From contig CM048849.1 in assembly GCA_026545225.1 (NCBI GenBank), positions 49,216,336 through 49,280,335 of the forward strand: DNA of 64,000 nt. The letters run 5' to 3'. Shown one piece after another: positions 42,390-56,420 of the stretch. A model generated the notes under the pieces. It was not told the origin of the DNA, made no database searches, and saw only the letters and a program-made list of their open reading frames with translations. The translations under genes and the position numbers were made by a program. Within the stretch, counting starts at the first letter, position 1. The number at the start of each line of letters is the position of its first letter. The DNA is from Cornus controversa. Taxonomy: Eukaryota; Streptophyta; Magnoliopsida; Cornales; Cornaceae.

Positions 42390-42680
42390 ACGAATTGTCA
42401 ATCTTTCTTGACGACAAACTAGGAACCAAGTTTGAATCTTGTATGGAAAATGATTGTGTTCTGAACTTTTTCAGACTACCTATTTAAAGTATCGTGTTAT
42501 GAACCAAGTTTGAATCTTGAAAAAGTTAACTGGTTGCAAACTTGCAATTTAGTTTTGTATTGGAAAAAATCATTAAAAACTATTTTGGTGACGAATTATC
42601 ATTCTTTCTTGACGATAAACTAGGAACCAAGTTTGAATCTTGTGTGGAAAATGATTGTGTTCTGAACTCTCTCTCATGAA
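42390..42680 (+). repeat. Direct repeats in the PHO2 leader intron, ~200 bp apart
   Basis: The segment TTTCTTGACGACAAACTAGG..AACCAAGTTTGAATCTTG..GAAAATGATTGTGTTCTGAA (about 42403-42468) recurs with few changes at about 42604-42668. A partial copy of AACCAAGTTTGAATCTTG lies at about 42501. Confidence 0.85.
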
Positions 42681-43019
42681 ATTTATGTTCTCCTCCCAAA
42701 TTTGACATACAGAGTTGAGGTAGAGGAGATCTTTTAAATTTATTGCTTTTACTATTGCTAGTCAATCAAAATATATCCCTATAACAAAAAGTTCATGTAA
42801 ATCATTGGTGGACAGTGACAAGCAATTTCTGGTTTTATTTGAAATTAACTGTATGAAGGCAGCGAGATCAAAATGATATAAGTTCACATTGTTTTTCTTA
42901 GTTTATTGTGCTTCTTCTGACTGTTTCTCTAACACACCTGCAAGATGCTATTCTTTTCATCTACTTGTATACCCATTTCCATACTTCTGTTTAAAAACCT
43001 TAAAGTGAGGAGGATTTGA

Positions 43020-43212
43020 GTAATTGAAGTCCGATCACATGATCTCTCTCTTTTATTTTCTCGACATGATGATTTTTAGCAGGAGTAATTGAAGTTGTAT
43101 CACATGATCTTTCTCTTTTATTTTCTGCACGTGATGAACTTGAACAGGAGTAATTGAAGTTAAATCACGTGATCTTTCTCTTTTATTTTCTCCACATGAT
43201 GAACTTTAACAG
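43020..43212 (+). repeat. Three tandem 65 bp units upstream of the miR399 exon
   Basis: Three consecutive copies start at 43020, 43085 and 43150, each with GTAATTGAAGT, TCACATGATCT (TCACGTGATC in the third) and CTCTTTTATTTTCT. The shared CACATG/CACGTG cores are E-box-like. The array lies in the leader intron about 60 bp before the predicted miR399-site exon. Confidence 0.9.
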
Positions 43213-43471
43213 TTACAGTTGTTCCAGGTTCCATGGAAATCTAAACTTGTTACAAGCAGCTTTTTACTTTTGGCAGGTGAGGTCATTCTTGAGATAGTTG
43301 ACTTTCTTTGGGTTGTGGCACAAGATACATTTATCTGAATCACTCTTTGCTTTGGATGGCTTGAATCTCTCTCTTCTTAATCCAGGATTTATGTTGGACA
43401 ATTGAATTTTATGCGAGGCGAATCTATCTCCTCGGCAGTGGACAGAACTGACTGAAACTTTGGCTTCATTC

Positions 43472-43903
43472 AGGGGCAAATCTCCTTTGGCAATATAAAA
43501 TTGGCTTCTGAAAGAAATAAAAAATCTTTCAGACCAGTTGGAAATATTTATATTTATATTTAAGATTCAACCAGTTCCGTTGGGCAAATCTCCTTTGGCA
43601 AAAATTCACACGTTTCGTCTAGCTGGGTAGGGCTCTTTTGACTGTCATACTTGAGGAGGGTTCATTATGGGGAAAATTATTGTCTTATCAATTTGACCAG
43701 GAACTCCAACCTGGCTACTGGGCAGATCTCCTTTGGCATTCACTTTCTTTCTTTTGAAACCTTCACTCTACCGGGTTGGAAAAATCTCTTTTGGCAGTTC
43801 CTTCTAGTGGAAACTTCAGTCCATTCCTTGGGCAAATCTCTTTTGGCAGTTGGGAGTCTTTAGTAGACTCCCTTTATCCCTTTTGGGCAAATCTCCTTTG
43901 GCA
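43472..43903 (+). promoter_or_regulatory. Six miR399 target sites in the PHO2 5' leader
   Basis: Six 21-nt sites complementary to miR399 occur in a row: 43472-43492, 43580-43600, 43718-43738, 43776-43796, 43828-43848 and 43883-43903. Sites 1, 2 and 6 carry the full core GGGCAAATCTCCTTTGGCA. Site 3 has one A-to-G change (a G:U pair at miRNA position 14). Site 5 has one C-to-T change (a G:U pair at position 8). Site 4 has that wobble plus mismatches near the miRNA 3' end and is the weakest. In plants, miR399 made under phosphate starvation binds such sites in the PHO2 5' UTR and lowers PHO2 mRNA. Arabidopsis is described with five sites. The array confirms both the gene identity and its regulation. 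Confidence 0.97.
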
Positions 43904-44610
43904 TTAATCTCCAGTTGTTTTGGAGATACTATCTTGGTCTCTGTATCACAAGATCAGATTGATCTAGAATATGTAAGTTTGTTGTTGAAGTATTATAGTG
44001 AATTTTAATATCATCTCATCATTTGATATCCGACACCACTTGTTGATCCTTATCGCAATCTACCCATATCAAGATAACATTTGGATTGGCAGAGGTGTTG
44101 AATGTTCTGAATCATCAGGCAAGGAGCATATCTACTGGTACTTCTCTATCCCTATTCAATATTATTATTTCTTTGTGGCATTGCTGGTTAGTCAATGTTA
44201 TCTAAAATACATCGTATGTAGCTGAATTTGCTTGAATGAAGCTGAATATGGTCAAATTAATTTTGAGCTGTGTTTTGTTGTTCACACTATTCTTCTCACT
44301 AAAATTTGAATGGCTTCCCACACATGTATCTCAACCCAGATCGAGGTATATATTCTCTTCTTTTAGGCTACTCCTTTCAAGTAAACTATTTTGCACTTGT
44401 GATAATTTGCAGAGATTATCGAGGGTTAAAGTGCAGGTCACTTCAGAAGAAACATTATCTGATTTCTTCTGTTAATGTGACACAGGTGAGAAATCTTTCC
44501 AAAATGAACTACTTGCTTAAAGGCTCCAATGCCTCTGCCTTTATTATTTATTTGTTTATTTTTTGGCAAATATGTAACTAAATTGCAAATATGTTTTGAC
44601 AGGCCTCAAA

Positions 44611-47600
44611 ATGATGGATTTTCTCCCAAGTGACTATGACAGTTCCAGCGAGAATGGTAGCTGCGAGGATCAAGATGACAATGAATATTTGTATGGTGGG
44701 CAGGCCAATAGCATTTTGTCAAGCCTTGAGGAAAGCATCAGAAAGATTGATGATTTCCTCTTGTTTGAGAGGGGGTTTATACATGGGGACATTGTGTGCT
44801 CCATAAAAGACCCATCTGGACAGATGGGCAGGGTGATCAATGTTGAAATGTTTTTGGACTTGGAAAATGCTCATGGAAAAACAATAAAAAATGTGAATTC
44901 AAAAGAACTTAAAAAGATTCATTCAATTTCAGTGGGAGATTATGTAGTGCATGGACCCTGGCTCGGGAAAGTGGATAAAATAGTTGACTGCATCACCATC
45001 CTGTTTGATGATGGTTCAAAGTGTGAATTCACCATGATGGGTCCAGAGAAGGTCCTTCCTATTTCTCCTGACTTACTTGAAGATTCGCAGTACTCTTATT
45101 ATCCAGGACAGAGAGTGCGGGTTGAACTCCCATCTGTTTCCAAAGCAGCTAGATGGTTACGTGGCACATGGAAGGCAAAACGAGATGAAGGAACTGTGTG
45201 TGCAGTCAAAGCAGGATTGGTATGTGTTGATTGGCTTGGCTATGTCCTGGTCGGTTGCGAAGGGTTGCCTGCTCCCCCATGTTTACAAGATCCAAAAACC
45301 CTAACATACTTGTCATGTTTTTCACATGCAAATTGGCAGCTTGGTGATTGGTGCATACTTCCAGTTGCATATCTTAATGATGTTATGGAGAAGACTTCTT
45401 TTAATGTATCCACTTGTGATCCTGTTAAAGAGCATAAACAATCAGAAAAAGAATCTCAGAGAAAGAACCTTAATCCGAATTTTCAGGAAATATTTGTTAC
45501 TGTAAAGACAAAGACCAAAGTTGATGTTTTGTGGCAGAATGGCAGCGTCTCATTTGGTTTAGATTCAAATTCTTTGTTTCCCGTAAATATTCTTGATGCT
45601 CATGACTTTTGGCCTGAACAATTTGTACTTGAAAAGGGCAGTTGTGATGATCCACATGTTCCCAGCAATGGAAGATGGGGTGTTGTGAGGAGCGTTGATG
45701 CAAAGGAAAAAACTGTGAAGGTCAAATGGGAAATTTTTGAAGTAAATCGACTATCTGATTTCGAGGGAAAGCATATGGAGGAAACTGTGAGTGCTTATGA
45801 ATTGATTGAGCACCCAGACTATTCTTATTGTTTTGGTGATATTGTGTTTAGATTGGAAACGAGCCAGTTAGTTGATCATCTTGGTGAAATTTTTTACAAA
45901 AAACATGGCTTCACAAAAATGGAAATGGGTGAGGAGGCTGCTCTTAAGGGTAAGAGCTGTGGTGGAGATCAAAATGAGTTCCCCAATAATAGTTACCTAT
46001 CATGTATTGGTATTGTTATGGGCTTAAAAGATGGGGATGTTGAGGTGAAATGGGCTACTGGCCTTACGAGCAAGGTACAAATTCTTTTTGTTCAGTTGAA
46101 CATTATTAACTACCGCATTGTCATATGGTACTAGCTATCCATGTTGTTGGGCTTTCTGATGAGTTCTACTAGTGTAGTATGGTGTTATTCACTTCTTTTA
46201 TTCATTCCTAGTTGCAAGTGAACTTTTGTAAATCTTTCTTATTGTAGAAAAGATTTCAAGATATTACATCTACTTTTCCCTCTCAAGGATAATAATCCCT
46301 ATTAACTGTTGATCAGACCAATAACTCCCACTTTGGCAGGATTATTTGATAAGTGCACAATTGCATTACCCAATGTACGTCTTTTTTTTTTTTCGAAAGG
46401 TAAACAAAAAAGAAAATAAATGTAAGCAGTAATAAAGTAACAGAGAGCTTGTTACCCAATGTATGTCACTATGTCCTACCTAGGTGGGGTGCTGGCAAGG
46501 GAAGACTAGAGATGGACCTAATGTTTTGCATTATCCAAATTGTGTGCTTGAGCTTTTACCAAATCAAGCAATGATGCAAGATTATTCTACACAAGTATAA
46601 ATTTTTTTATACTTCCTGATTTATCCTTTTAACATTAAATTATGATTATTTCTTGTCCTGTGATGAGCCTTTAAATTCTTGAATTAGTGAACAACTATAT
46701 TTTAACTGCTTGAACATTCAATTTTCTGGCTAAATATGGATTATACATTATTTTTTTGTATTTTTTTTTATCATAAATCTTATATACATACAACTTTATT
46801 CTTTATTTTAGTTTTAGTGCGAACTTGACTATTTATTATCACATAGATGCTAAAGAACTCTTTTAGTTTTGATATCAGAAATAGGTTGAAATTTGACATT
46901 TATGCACCAAGGATCAAAAGAATTCTTTTTGTTTTATTGTCATATAGATGCAAAACACTCTTAACCAGTCATTGATGTAAAAGAGGAAGAGTTGTTGCCT
47001 CACAATGAAATCAGCATGAGATTCCTTGACTAAAATTAATTAATGGATAGTTGTTTTGGCCTGTCAACGACTCCATCTGATCAGAACACTGAAAACCTAG
47101 ATTGTATGCTGCGTAAAACAACCAGTGACCAGAAAAGATTTGCCAATGTGCCAGATATTGTCTGATTATAATGCAACATCATGAAACTTTTGCATTTTCA
47201 TTCATGTTGCTGCTCTTGGCTTGTTTGGCTATACAAATGTTATAGTCCCTCTTTCAATATTTCCTTGAAAATTATCATAAAGCTTATTATACATACAACT
47301 TTATTCTTTATTTTAGTTTTAGTGTGAACTTGACTATTTATTATCACATAGATGCTAAAGAACACTTTTTAGTTTTGATATCAGAAATAGGCTGAAATTT
47401 GACATTTATGCACTAAGGTTCAAAGGAACTCTATTCGTTTTATTGTCATATAGATGCAAAACACTCTTAACCAGTCATTGATGTAAAAGAGGAAGAGTTG
47501 GTGCAGAGTAGAGGGGACGGGAATGGGAAGAGTTTCTGTCACGCCCCGGATTTTAAGACCCAAAACCCGAGGTGTGACTTGGAGGGTTTAGGGATTTTAG

Positions 47601-50600: not shown

Positions 50601-53600
50601 AATTGTTCAAAAGTTGCATCTGTGACATTGAACTTTACAAAATTATGATTCATTCCCTTAATAAAAAATTGCCTATTTGTTGACGGAGTGAACACCTGTT
50701 TTCTAGTTCTTAATGTGACTGTTGAAACTTCATGGAAATTGAGAAACATAATTTGTTTTTCTTATGATTGCAACTAAACCTGCCTATTTGATGTAAGATT
50801 CCTGGTTTCATCCTGTCATCTAGACTGACGGAGCATAATGGAATTACTGAATTGGGTTATAACCTCTTAGTTTGGCACTTCATTTAAATTCAATATTCTT
50901 CTTAAATGCTTGTGTCAATTGCACTATGATTATTAAAAGAACTGCTTGCTTGTATGCTCAGGGATTGTTGGACTCTAGTTCCTATTCACTTCCTCAAGCT
51001 GCTGTTGGGTTTTTCACGAGTATTATGACAAGCCTTTTTGGTTATCTGGTTCCCCCATCACTGCCAGGTACATCTGGCCCTATTTTAGAAGATGCACATG
51101 ATGTGACTATCATTGAGAAAGATCTGGAATCTTGCAATTTGTGGACTGAGGAACCACCAACTATAGTAGGTGACTTGCATACAGTTGGAGAAACTAAGGT
51201 GGAGCTGCAAGTCAAAGATATCCAGGAAAATGAAGCCTTTCTATTTTCATCAGGCAACAAGAACTCAGAAGAGTTTAGGCAGTTTGATATGGTTAGCGGT
51301 TGCTACAACCACTATTTTGTTGATGGTTCTGGCAAGGGATTAACATTGTCTCAGGTTGGAACATTACTTCGTTTTCCCTTAAATTACCAGTTAACACATG
51401 AACAGATTAAAAACCCATTTGTTCCTTTTTTTTCCTTTATAGATGAAAAGAAGTTGGTTGAAGAAGGTTCGGCAAGAATGGAGCATCCTGGAGAAAGATC
51501 TTCCTGGTAAGTACTTGATCTTATGTTGTTTACTGCTCCGATATGCTTTGTCCTATTAAATCTTGCATTAGACAACAACCTATTAGTTATTAGAGAATTT
51601 GAGTGAGTTTCATTAGTGAATTACAGCAATGGATTCACTGACCTACCTGTTAAGTGGATTGTGATTGAAGTAATTAGCGGTTCATGCATCATATTAGGAA
51701 TAAAATGCGAAATATCCAAGGACTATGTGCAAGTGTGTAATCAAGGAGAGGACAAATATAAAGATAATGTACAAACCAAGAACAGCTTGGTTCAGCATAT
51801 GTTCATGTCCACTGGCAATCCAACATGATTGACCCATATATGAGATAATCTGGTCAACCCCAACAATCTCTCTCATACACAATTTAACTCGAATCTGAGC
51901 ATGTTGCTTTACCTCAACCCTACACTAGCGTGATTGTGTCCCAGACAAATATGTGATAGTGTCACTTATGAATCTTGAGTCTTGATATTCTCCATGATTT
52001 CCACCAAGGAAGAGAGTGACTTAATAAGAGGATCAATTCCTAGAAACCTATGCACAATAAGGTGCTACATTTTGTCCCACACACTCACCTTCATTGTATT
52101 ATAGTCGATGAAAAAAGCAGAAGATTTCTGAGAGTTAAAATGAAAAAAGAATTATAGTCAATCTGCTTCATTCTATTTATTTTCTTTTATGCCCATGTGA
52201 GTGGGCATATCTCTCATCTTTAACAATGATTTTATTTACTAGTGGCCCAATGAAATACTCTCCAGATGTCAAGATATTGATGGACTGACTGCTGGTGGCT
52301 TAAAAAAACATTAGGGAAGGAGATTTTTTTAAATTAAATTAATTGTTTATTTATTTTTTATATAAAGGCTCCAAAAGAGAACACAACCCATGCACATGTG
52401 AGTATACAACCATACCAAAATCATCAACTCAAATTCATATCACCCAAAACCAAAATCCCACATTCCAAAATTAATGATCTCAGAATAATCTGTTTCAACC
52501 TATGAACACGGATCTTCTCCCCTTCATAAACCCTTCCATTCATTTCTATCCAAATGCTCTATATCAAATAAAGAGAGCTGGATCTCACACCTTAATTTTC
52601 TGCATCGGACATCTTCCTCTCCAATTTCTGAACAAGTCCCTGATGTCTCAGGCATAACCCAAGCACATCCAAACAAGGAAAAGAGGACACTCCAACTCCT
52701 TGACCACACTACAATGAAGAAATGACTGAGAGTTTGCTCCTCTGCACATGCAATACCAGTCAGTCACTGGATAGCCTCTTCTCTTCAAATTATCTCTAGT
52801 GATGATGGATGAAAATATGCTGACCCACAAAAAAAGAGCCGCCTAGACACTGAAATCTGGACTTCACACTATGCCATGGCTGTAAAGGACACAAATGCAA
52901 ACAAGGAAAAGAGGACACTCCAACTCCCTTACCACACTACAATGAAGAAATGACTGAGAGTTTGCTCCTCTGCACATGCAATACCAGTTAGTCACTCACT
53001 GGATAGCCTCTTCTCTTCAAATTATCTTTAGTGATGATGGGTGCAAATATGCTGACCCACAAAAAAAAGAGCCACCTAGACACTGAAATCTGGACTTCAC
53101 ACTATGCCATGGCTGTAAAGGACACAAATGCCGCACCTAAAATCTTTATGTAATTTGATCCAAAATAGTATTAGGGAAACAATTCTTCAACACTATGCCA
53201 TGGCTGTAAAGGACACAAATGCCGCACCTAAAATCTTTATGTAATTTGATCCAAAATAGTATTAGGGAAACAATTCTTCAACACTACCTTGTCCCAATCG
53301 CTAAGGGGTAGAAAATCCTCCCAGGCTTTCGTAATTCTTTTCTACTAGCATATCAAATAAGAAGTCTCCACCGCCTTTGAACCCAAATCCCCCCAACTGC
53401 ACCCATACTTGTGCTCCACCACCCTCCACATATATTCTCTCTAGCAAATCTCCACAACCGCTTTACTGGGAGAGCCTGACTAAAAATCCTTAAGAGTTTT
53501 GGTTAGAATCCTGTCCCATCCACTAAGTGTAAGTTTGACTCCTCTCCTAGGGCTCTCCACTATAAAATCCTGCTGTAGCTTATCTAACCTGATGATATGG

Positions 53601-56420
53601 TGAATGATGACATGAATTATGTCGGGGGGAAGACTTAAAAAGGTGCTTTTTATAAGAGTCGTCCTGCCCCCTCCAAGAGATGTCTTCTACCCGCTAGACT
53701 TGCCAAGAACCTTTCCACAACAACAACCTACACTACCTTTGCCTTAAGATATAATAGGTAAGAAAGGAACACCTTACTTCCCAAATTAATAGATCAATCC
53801 TTTTCAAAACCATATCCCTAAGCCCCCAATCTAAATTAGCTCAACTCTTCCCCAGATTCACCTAGAAGCCTGAGAGTGCCTTAAAGCACAACTGCGGATA
53901 TCAAGTGTCTTACCTGCTCACAAGAAATAATGGTATCCTCTAAAAACAGAAGGTGGATACCTCTATCTGAGCACCCGTTGTCCTCAACCACAGAACTTGT
54001 AATAGTTTTCCCTCCACTGTCCACCTCAAAAATCTACTTAGTTCCCTTGTGCTTGTAAAAAAACTATCCAATGATAAATTCACCAAGATAGAGAATCTAA
54101 TTCTGGAGATGCAAGTTTCTAAACCAACACCATCTCCTCAGGCATTAACCTGGAATCCACACATTCATTAGTTATGAACACTGCATCAATACCTGTCTCC
54201 TGCAAATATTTTGGATCATTGAAACAACTCCTCCCAGCACCCTTTGAAGCCTCAAGATGGAACCTTTGCCAGTAGCTTGTAATTACTACTCACCATGCTA
54301 ATCAGTCAAAAGCCCTTATCATCCAACTGCCAACCCCCTTTTCTTGGCAACAAATGCAATAAAAGAAGCATTCAAGTTTCTCTGAAAAATCTCCTGCTCA
54401 AATAACGAATAGAACACTGCTATAGTATCCTCCCTCACCACATCCTAATACTGCTGAAAGAAAGTTATAATGATTCCATCTGATAAGGTTGCCTTATTCC
54501 CATGACATGACATCGGGGCCTTCCACCACTCCTCCAAAGAAAGCCTCTTGAACCAACCTCTATCAGCCTCACTAATGGAATACTTATAAGACTCACCAAT
54601 CTCTATCAGACTGGAGGAAATGAATTATAAATACTTAAAAAAAATAAACAAAATTTATTTTGCAATAGAAAATGCAACGCTGAAAAGGAGGCTCTGGTGT
54701 GGTTTTGATATGTGAAAGCTGAAGGTACAGAAATAATTGCAATATATGAAGCAGCCGAGTAAAAACTACCACTCCATGATAAATTCTATATATGAAATGT
54801 TAATTTTTTTGAAGTGAAACAAGTATCTATTATTTAGTGGATCCTGACAATCCAAACTTTGTGAGCTATTGTTAATTGGGCCTATTTTGTAACCTGAACA
54901 GAAACAATTTATGTCCGTCTCTACGAGGAAAGGATGGATTTGTTGCGGGCAGCCATCATAGGAGCACCTGGAACTCCATACCATGATGGACTCTTCTTTT
55001 TTGACATTTTTCTGCCTCCAGATTATCCACATGAACCACCTGTAAGATTTAGTTTTGTGTTTTGGTTCTTATTCATTGACATAATGGTTGAATAAATGGT
55101 GTCATATTTGGACAACCTCTCCTTGATAATGCAAAGTCAGTGCCGTCAATTCCAAATCCTATTTTTATTCCAATTTTTTTCTAATAAATTTAGTGTATAT
55201 TGAACTTCCAGTGCCTTTTTGTTAACAGAAAAGGGGTGTATATGTAGCAGTCCATATATATATATATATATGTTGGATATCTTACATACACATTATATCT
55301 GAACAAAAGCTCACTCACTCTTTGTGGGCGTCAAACTTTATGCAGTTGGTACACTACAATTCTGGTGGACTTCGAATCAACCCTAACTTGTATGAGTCTG
55401 GAAAGGTCTGTCTCAGTCTTCTCAATACATGGACAGGCACATCTTCTGAAGTATGGAATCCAGAAAGCTCCACTGTTCTCCAAGTTCTTCTCTCATTACA
55501 GGCCCTTGTGCTTAATGAAAAGCCTTATTTCAATGAAGCTGGATATGATGAGCTGATGGGAAGAGCTGAGGGAGAGAAAAACTCAGTGAGCTACAATGAA
55601 AATGCATTTCTTGTTAGCTGCAAGTCAATACTATACCTTCTACACAATCCACCCAAGGTACATTAATTTTTCTATAATGGCAGTTTGCTCTAACATCCAG
55701 AAAATTTTAAAAGGGCCATTATAACTGCTGTAATTGGTAAATTACCTCTGGACCATTACAAAATGCTGTCTGAAAAAAAAAAAAACAGCCACTAGATTCT
55801 GTTAAATGTCTTTTAGAAAGATATGTTAATAGAGTCAGAGGGAACTTAGATGTCTCTTGAAAGTTGAAACTGGTCCAGGAATTGGTTCTATATTGTTTCC
55901 CAAAGCCTTGAGATGATTTATCCATATAATACATGTTTCACTTTTACACATTGAAGAACTGTTCATGAATGTTAAGGAATATATTCTGAAAAAATAAATA
56001 AATTTTATTTTAACATTAGAATTAACAAAATGAAGAATTAGAATCTGAGGACCACCGTGGTTTTTGACATGGTGAAAGCCCTGCCCTTCACATAAATGAT
56101 AAAATAGAATCCTTGAATTGATCGTTTTTGACATAATAGTTATAAGAAGTTAAAACTGTAGTATGTTTGTTTTTGCAATGGTGCAGCATTTTGAGGCACT
56201 TGTGGAGGAGCACTTCAGCCAACGTTCCAAATATATTCTTTTGGCTTGTAAGGCATATATGGATGGAGCTCCAGTAGGTTGTGCTTTTGGATGCGAAAAA
56301 ACTGAGCAAGAAAATAAACTTGGAAACTCTACAGGATTCAAGATCATGCTTGCTAAGCTCTTCCCTAGGCTGGTGAAAGCATTTTCTGAGAAGGGTATTG
56401 ATTGCAGCCAATTTTATTGA
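44611..56420 (+). CDS. PHO2: E2 ubiquitin-conjugating enzyme PHO2/UBC24
   Basis: Coding segments: 44611-46074, 50162-50293, 50962-51354, 51443-51506, 54902-55041, 55346-55657 and 56187-56420. They join in frame into about 912 aa, close to Arabidopsis PHO2 (907 aa). The start follows the leader intron (MMDFLPSDYDSSSENG); ATG 44614 is an alternative. The N-terminal two thirds contain the family's SH3-like/KOW-type repeats (ERGFIHGDIVCSIKDPSGQM, GDYVVHGPWLGKVDKIVD, DSQYSYYPGQRVRVEL, ANWQLGDWCILP). The UBC domain begins at KRSWLKKVRQEWSILEKDLP and includes GAPGTPYHDGLFFFDIFLPP and HYNSGGLRINPNLYESGKVC; the cysteine in KVCLSLLNTW is the catalytic one. PHO2 acts at endomembranes and promotes degradation of phosphate transporters (PHO1, PHT1 proteins), so limiting phosphate loading. 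It is repressed by miR399 through the leader sites. Two large introns carry a solo LTR and a LINE. The extreme C-terminus (SQFY, stop) differs from what I expect (see findings). Confidence 0.95.
46785..47503 (+). repeat. Direct repeats of ~210 bp in PHO2 intron
   Basis: The segment 46785-46999 (ACATACAACTTTATTCTTTA ... AACCAGTCATTGATGTAAAA) is repeated at about 47285-47500 with roughly ten changes. About 290 bp of unrelated sequence separates them. The second copy ends just before the solo LTR. Confidence 0.9.
47537..49892 (-). mobile_element. Solo LTR, 2.36 kb, in the first coding intron of PHO2
   Basis: The element runs from TGTCACGCCCCGG (47537) to GGATCTTACA (49892), that is TG...CA ends. 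It is flanked by GTTTC (47532-47536) and GTTTA (49893-49897), a near-perfect 5 bp target duplication. The TGTCACGCCCC / GGGCGTGACA terminus is common in plant gypsy-type LTRs. In minus orientation it starts TGTAAGATCCTGAATTTT and ends CCGGGGCGTGACA, which I think is the true orientation. No internal gag-pol sequence or second LTR is present, so it is a solo LTR or a non-coding derivative. It is transcribed as part of the PHO2 intron. Confidence 0.8.
48364..48504 (+). repeat. Three short tandem copies inside the solo LTR
   Basis: GGACCCTTTAACCCTGGGA followed by CGTGCCCCTCGTG (with small changes) appears three times, at about 48368, 48424 and 48470. The spacing is about 46-56 bp. It is the only GC-rich stretch of the LTR. 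Confidence 0.9.
52322..54660 (-). pseudogene. Decayed antisense LINE (L1-type) ORF2 fragment in PHO2 intron
   Basis: Read on the minus strand from about 54600 downward, patches of a LINE reverse transcriptase appear in the proper order, broken by many stops and shifts. They are EGPDVMSWE, VFITNECVDSRL (family NECVDSRL), HLLFLEDTIIS (where an active RT has FADDT), SGF.VNLGKS (family INLGKSE), and then a zf-RVT-like end with DNLKRRGYPVTDWYCMCRGA, SQSFLHCSVVKEL and LFSLFGCAWVMPE. The segment near 52322-52365 is T-rich, the place for the element's 3' A-tail. It is inserted antisense to PHO2 in the intron 51507-54901. Confidence 0.88.
52672..53282. repeat. Tandem duplications inside the LINE remnant
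   Basis: A unit of about 220 bp (from AACAAGGAAAAGAGGACACT, 52672) is repeated from about 52897. A 93 bp unit (CACTATGCCATGGCTGTAAA ... GGGAAACAATTCTTCAA) is then repeated at 53099-53190 and 53192-53283, the two copies being nearly identical. The second duplication is therefore recent compared with the age of the LINE. Confidence 0.92.

Follow-up and report, generated by a model that had tools for sequence, protein, structure and literature searches.

The question raised by this locus is whether a PHO2 leader with six miR399 sites represents a recent addition to the five-site arrangement that is usually described, or an old layout that has been maintained. The window, i.e., the whole 64,000-nucleotide stretch of contig C5 of Cornus controversa that was analysed, carries on its plus strand six 21-nt matches complementary to miR399, located within 43472-43903 and in the sense orientation to a PHO2/UBC24-type gene (Table 1). 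The graded series described in the first-pass annotation was reproduced: the complete core GGGCAAATCTCCTTTGGCA is present in sites 1, 2 and 6, two further sites have a single G:U pair in the core, and one site is degraded. When the whole window was scanned with five Arabidopsis miR399 variants, six positions on the plus strand had a penalty of 4 or less, all of them leader sites, and 200 dinucleotide shuffles of the window gave a mean of 0.00 and a maximum of 0 sites at this threshold on the same strand. The final penalties were calculated with the mature miR399s of the genome itself in place of the Arabidopsis set, and the best values for sites 1-6 were 1, 1, 1, 3.5, 2 and 1. The duplex energies of these sites (best of three own miR399s) ranged from 0.63 to 1.00 of that of a perfect duplex, compared with a maximum of 0.53 among 106 non-site tiles of the same leader. 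A scan of the window against Rfam matched no family at the gathering score.

The gene downstream belongs to the PHO2/UBC24 type. UBE2O-type SH3 domains are encoded in an open frame on the same strand, and exons with a UBC domain follow farther on; this is the N-terminal and C-terminal domain combination of PHO2/UBC24. Judging by sequence, several miR399 sites lie 5' of the start codon, in what is probably the leader. The pieces of the gene align in order with what we take to be the Arabidopsis PHO2 sequence, and the motif ESGKVCLSLLNTW in one of the UBC-domain exons presumably holds the active cysteine. The earlier assignment of the gene to the PHO2 type is therefore well supported by its domains and by this colinearity.

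Table 1 Features of the window discussed in the text (penalties are the best values obtained with the genome's own mature miR399s)
Feature	Position	Strand	Comment
Conserved leader region, possible extent	43228..44123	+	shared AG and conservation in the sister gene
Putative relic site 0	43416..43437	+	two miR399-like halves with 4 extra nt between them where cleavage would fall; seed half not intact
miR399 site 1	43472..43492	+	full core; penalty 1 (own d-type miR399); 21/21 identical in the sister gene
miR399 site 2	43580..43600	+	full core; penalty 1.0; mismatch at miRNA position 8 in the sister gene
miR399 site 3	43718..43738	+	core G:U at miRNA position 14; penalty 1.0
miR399 site 4	43776..43796	+	degraded: mismatches at miRNA positions 16 and 17, G:U at 8; penalty 3.5
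miR399 site 5	43828..43848	+	core G:U at miRNA position 8; penalty 2.0; full core in the sister gene
miR399 site 6	43883..43903	+	full core; penalty 1.0; mismatch at miRNA position 19 in the sister gene
First coding exon, PHO2	44614..46077	+	UBE2O-type SH3 domains; begins with the downstream ATG of an adjacent pair (the other at 44611); 3' limit approximate
Middle coding exon(s), PHO2	50971..51550	+	alignment to presumed Arabidopsis PHO2 sequence; limits approximate; 50971-51357 open in both copies
UBC-domain exon, first half	54904..55044	+	alignment to presumed Arabidopsis PHO2 sequence
UBC-domain exon with motif ESGKVCLSLLNTW	55346..55657	+	domain evidence and alignment
Last coding exon, part, PHO2	56184..56411	+	alignment to presumed Arabidopsis PHO2 sequence

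The microRNA that fits these sites is encoded in the same genome. A search of the 772-Mb genome for the miR399 core with no more than one mismatch gave at least 18 places, namely five sites of the window leader, four sites of a second PHO2 leader, eight MIR399 hairpins and one other, and the leader sites fit the genome's own miR399 species from these at least eight loci. This last place, C5:53028022 on the minus strand, adjoins the C5:53028078 miR399 and can be read as the other arm of the same hairpin. All eight MIR399 candidates (8/8) folded with miR399 in the 3' arm at -43.5 to -67.4 kcal/mol; of two target sites folded as controls, one gave no such fold and the other gave a weak 193-nt fold of -25.3 kcal/mol. 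Six of the eight hairpins are located on C5, the contig of both PHO2 genes, in two clusters (52.997, 52.999, 53.024 and 53.028 Mb; 59.375 and 59.380 Mb). Additionally, a loose pattern for target mimics was matched at five places in the genome, and, as judged from the sequences of four of the five matches, the IPS1/At4 form GGGCAACTTC[A/G]ATCCTTTGGCA is present in two of these, one on C6 and one on C8, and absent from the others.

The evidence bearing most directly on the age of the sixth site came from the second PHO2-type gene, located at C5:63.787-63.799 Mb on the same contig as the window. The leader of this sister gene also contains six miR399 sites, in register with those of the window; the start-to-start spacings are 138, 130, 58, 52 and 55 in the sister leader and 108, 138, 58, 52 and 55 in the window leader, so that the last three, connecting sites 3-6, are equal. 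Between the copies, 116/126 site positions are identical, compared with 405/551 of the other ungapped positions of the 43278-43972 exon (405/569 with gaps; one site position, at which the aligner placed a gap, was scored as different), and this difference had a Fisher p of 1.9e-6 with positions treated as independent. The coding divergence of the two copies corresponds to a Ks of 0.346 (~0.35) and a Ka/Ks of 0.37 over 838 codons, and the five coding pieces compared are open, free of stops, in both. The surroundings are partly collinear as well: in a comparison of the window with roughly 90 kb of sequence from the sister region, segments near 2.1-7.5, 34.1-35.5 and 41.7-56.5 kb of the window were found in the same order and direction, together with several dispersed matches outside this pattern. 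Since six sites stand in register in both copies, the set is older than the duplication at Ks 0.35, and the best explanation of the sequences is that the six-site layout already existed when a segmental or whole-genome duplication produced the second gene.

At the same time, the two copies are not equally strong at each position. The sister sites 1-6 have penalties of 1, 3, 3, 4, 1 and 2 with the genome's own miR399s, and the strong sites (penalty up to 1) are thus 1, 2, 3 and 6 for the window copy, whereas the sister gene has two, 1 and 5. Sister site 3 retains the G:U pair at miRNA position 14 and has an extra mismatch at position 6. Site 4 is poor in the sister gene too, the mismatch at miRNA position 16 is common to both copies, and 18/21 of its positions are identical between them; the weakness of this site may predate the split of the copies. 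The gain and the decay of sites proposed in the first-pass annotation fared differently: the gain of an extra site was not supported, the sister gene having the same six in register and a six-site leader having been published for barley, while decay copy by copy was supported, the weakened sites being 4 and 5 in the window copy and 2, 3, 4 and 6 in the sister gene. Each copy has weakened partly different sites since the duplication. Accessibility folding gave no clear contrast for sites 1-6 in either leader, with a mean unpaired fraction of 0.41 to 0.58 at the sites versus 0.41 overall for the window copy, and of 0.39 to 0.53 versus 0.42 overall for the sister copy.

The comparison with the sister gene also bears on the limits of the leader. 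The sites had been placed in one exon, 43278-43972, and all six lie inside under any of the limits considered here; the limits themselves, chiefly that of the 3' end, are uncertain, because the donor is unconserved and the acceptor is found in the sister gene only with a one-base shift. The acceptor AG at 43275-43276, just before the proposed exon start, is AA in the sister gene, where an AG follows after a shift of one base. The donor GT at 43973 is AT there. An AG at 43226-43227 is common to both copies, and conservation remains high to about 44123 (36/40 identical over 44080-44119), so that, going by these two sequences, the leader exon may start at 43228 and end near 44123. Within 43229-43972, five short upstream ATG frames of 2-14 codons are present, all in 43233-43693. 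Directly upstream of the leader, 43018-43212 consists of a 65-nt unit present three times in tandem, with 83% and 86% identity of copies two and three to the first, and the sister gene gave no alignment over 42965-43185. Farther upstream, 42392-42467 and 42593-42752 match one and the same sister stretch, and this piece was apparently duplicated in the window copy.

One UBC exon compared with the genome gave seven matches among those listed, and a third PHO2-like gene, with a UBC exon 74% identical, is located near C4:64659364 (C4:64.66 Mb). The 40 kb fetched for this gene, about 32 kb of which lie upstream of the first coding match, contained no unbulged miR399 site at a penalty up to 7 on either strand. 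The C4 gene is possibly a miR399-free relative; its use as an outgroup to polarise the site changes was abandoned, as no sites were found.

A further miR399-like element, designated site 0, precedes site 1 in both leaders. In the sister gene (L009 4816-4838) it reads AAGCAAATC-TATC-TCCTTTGGCA, with a seed half that pairs perfectly over 10 nt, four inserted nucleotides where cleavage would fall, and a second half that matches for the most part. The window copy shares the insertion, and its seed half lacks one base and has one mismatch in addition. Bulged sites (1-6 nt) with a penalty up to 2 arose in 0/2000 shuffles of the sister leader, while at a looser limit, a penalty up to 4, 88/2000 shuffles held one; because of the latter value, only the tight case is claimed for site 0. 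The ATCT repeat at this point suggests a small tandem duplication within an older site. When site 0 was searched for in the genome with no more than two mismatches, the sister copy was found exactly, along with one place on C8 with two mismatches; this C8 match was rejected as being at control level, the reversed pattern also being found at one place. Natural mimics of the IPS1/At4 kind require perfect seed pairing and a bulge opposite miRNA positions 9-12. By sequence, the sister site 0 has both, and the window site 0, with its broken seed half, does not. Site 0 may thus be a decayed relic or a formerly mimic-like element. Among the literature matches listed, the portions available contain no mention of a mimic-like site in PHO2 leaders, and the phrases "PHO2 leader" and "PHO2 UTR" are absent from those matches on mimics.

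It is conceivable that the weak sites (site 4, the bulged site 0, and sites 2 and 3 of the sister gene) have been kept as non-cleaved, low-affinity holders of miR399 that tune the response in cis. Site 4, poor in both copies and still 18/21 identical, would fit this, as would the insertion shared by both copies of site 0, the IPS1-like perfect seed half of the sister copy and its duplex energy, 0.63 of perfect, when none of 110 non-site tiles of that leader goes above 0.52. However, the window site 0 has no intact seed half, its energy of 0.57 is barely above the non-site maximum of 0.53, and the identity of site 0 between the copies (19/23 positions) is not clearly above the background of 405/551, so that we regard this retention as improbable. 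The same low weight is given to a more elaborate history, in which an ancestral leader would have had seven miR399 elements, one of them a non-cleavable mimic-like element in cis with its 4-nt bulge opposite the cut, and the two copies would after duplication have divided strong and weak sites between them and come to differ in their miR399 dose response.

Less likely still is a recent, lineage-specific gain of the sixth site that would have shifted the dose response to phosphate starvation. What favours such a gain is the published record, in the excerpts of which five is the usual number: five sites are stated for Arabidopsis, rice, Medicago and poplar and for PvPHO2 of common bean, where they lie in the second 5'UTR exon and one differs between genotypes (PMC3645745), for wheat, in a single leader exon, the second (PMC4945926), for three genes of Medicago (PMC10319397) and for rice, where the structure of one target region was probed (PMC9009289). 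Five were also predicted in barley, two of them cleaved, and four of five are cleaved in Arabidopsis (PMC3878733); a five-site Arabidopsis leader was used in a reporter, with cleavage at site 2 (PMC8516643). Nicotiana benthamiana is given four sites, two confirmed as cleaved (PMC6296076), and for soybean one PHO2 cleavage position is given, with no number of sites (PMC3673897). Against a recent gain stand the sister gene, which carries all six sites in register despite a Ks of 0.35, and, in the part of the source available, barley HvPHO2, whose exon 2 has six predicted sites, three mismatches being present in the sixth (PMC4919326). Five is therefore the usual count among the literature matches listed, which may miss six-site leaders elsewhere, and six is not unprecedented. 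Moreover, predicted sites are not all cleaved in the published work, and therefore six predicted sites need not be six used ones.

That the sites are chance repeats or a tandem-repeat expansion with no relation to miR399 can practically be discarded, despite the 3 x 65-nt tandem repeat close by, since the six-copy repeat family revealed by repeat search covers the site and a few flanking bases only, with the spacers not repeated, none of the 200 shuffles held any such site, and the sites are better conserved in the sister gene than the remaining exon.

With high confidence, then, the locus is read as an ordinary flowering-plant PHO2 (UBC24) 5' leader with six predicted miR399 sites, part of the standard miR399-PHO2 switch, whose layout predates the duplication. 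Cleavage, expression and physiology would follow from the known module: under phosphate starvation, PHR1-type factors would raise miR399, AGO1 loaded with miR399 would cut the leader of PHO2 wherever a site pairs well enough, PHO2 would drop, and phosphate transporters would escape degradation, with IPS1-type RNAs presumably buffering miR399. The six-site leader is in this plant an old, maintained arrangement and not a new gain. Multiple miR399 sites are otherwise an expected feature of PHO2, and the locus is of value mainly for comparison: a pair of duplicated leaders in one genome, with differently graded sites, provides a natural test of how the number and strength of sites relate to the phosphate-starvation response.

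Among known systems, the IPS1/At4 mimics resemble the sister site 0 in its intact seed half and the extra nucleotides opposite the cleavage point; unlike them, site 0 lies inside a PHO2 leader, has four extra nucleotides and is broken in the window copy. Common bean PvPHO2 shares the variation in site strength, which there, according to the excerpt, occurs between alleles and is tied to altered cleavage (PMC3645745), whereas here it is read from sequence and occurs between duplicate genes and between sites. Barley HvPHO2 shares the number of six predicted sites, as stated in the matching part of the source (PMC4919326); its site with three mismatches comes last, counted from the 5' end, while the poorest of the window leader is the fourth. 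Arabidopsis PHO2/UBC24, as far as the excerpts describe it, is alike in that a UBC24-type coding region is preceded by a 5' leader with several miR399 sites of 21 nt, but the Arabidopsis leader has five sites, whereas the window leader has six and the genome has two such genes.
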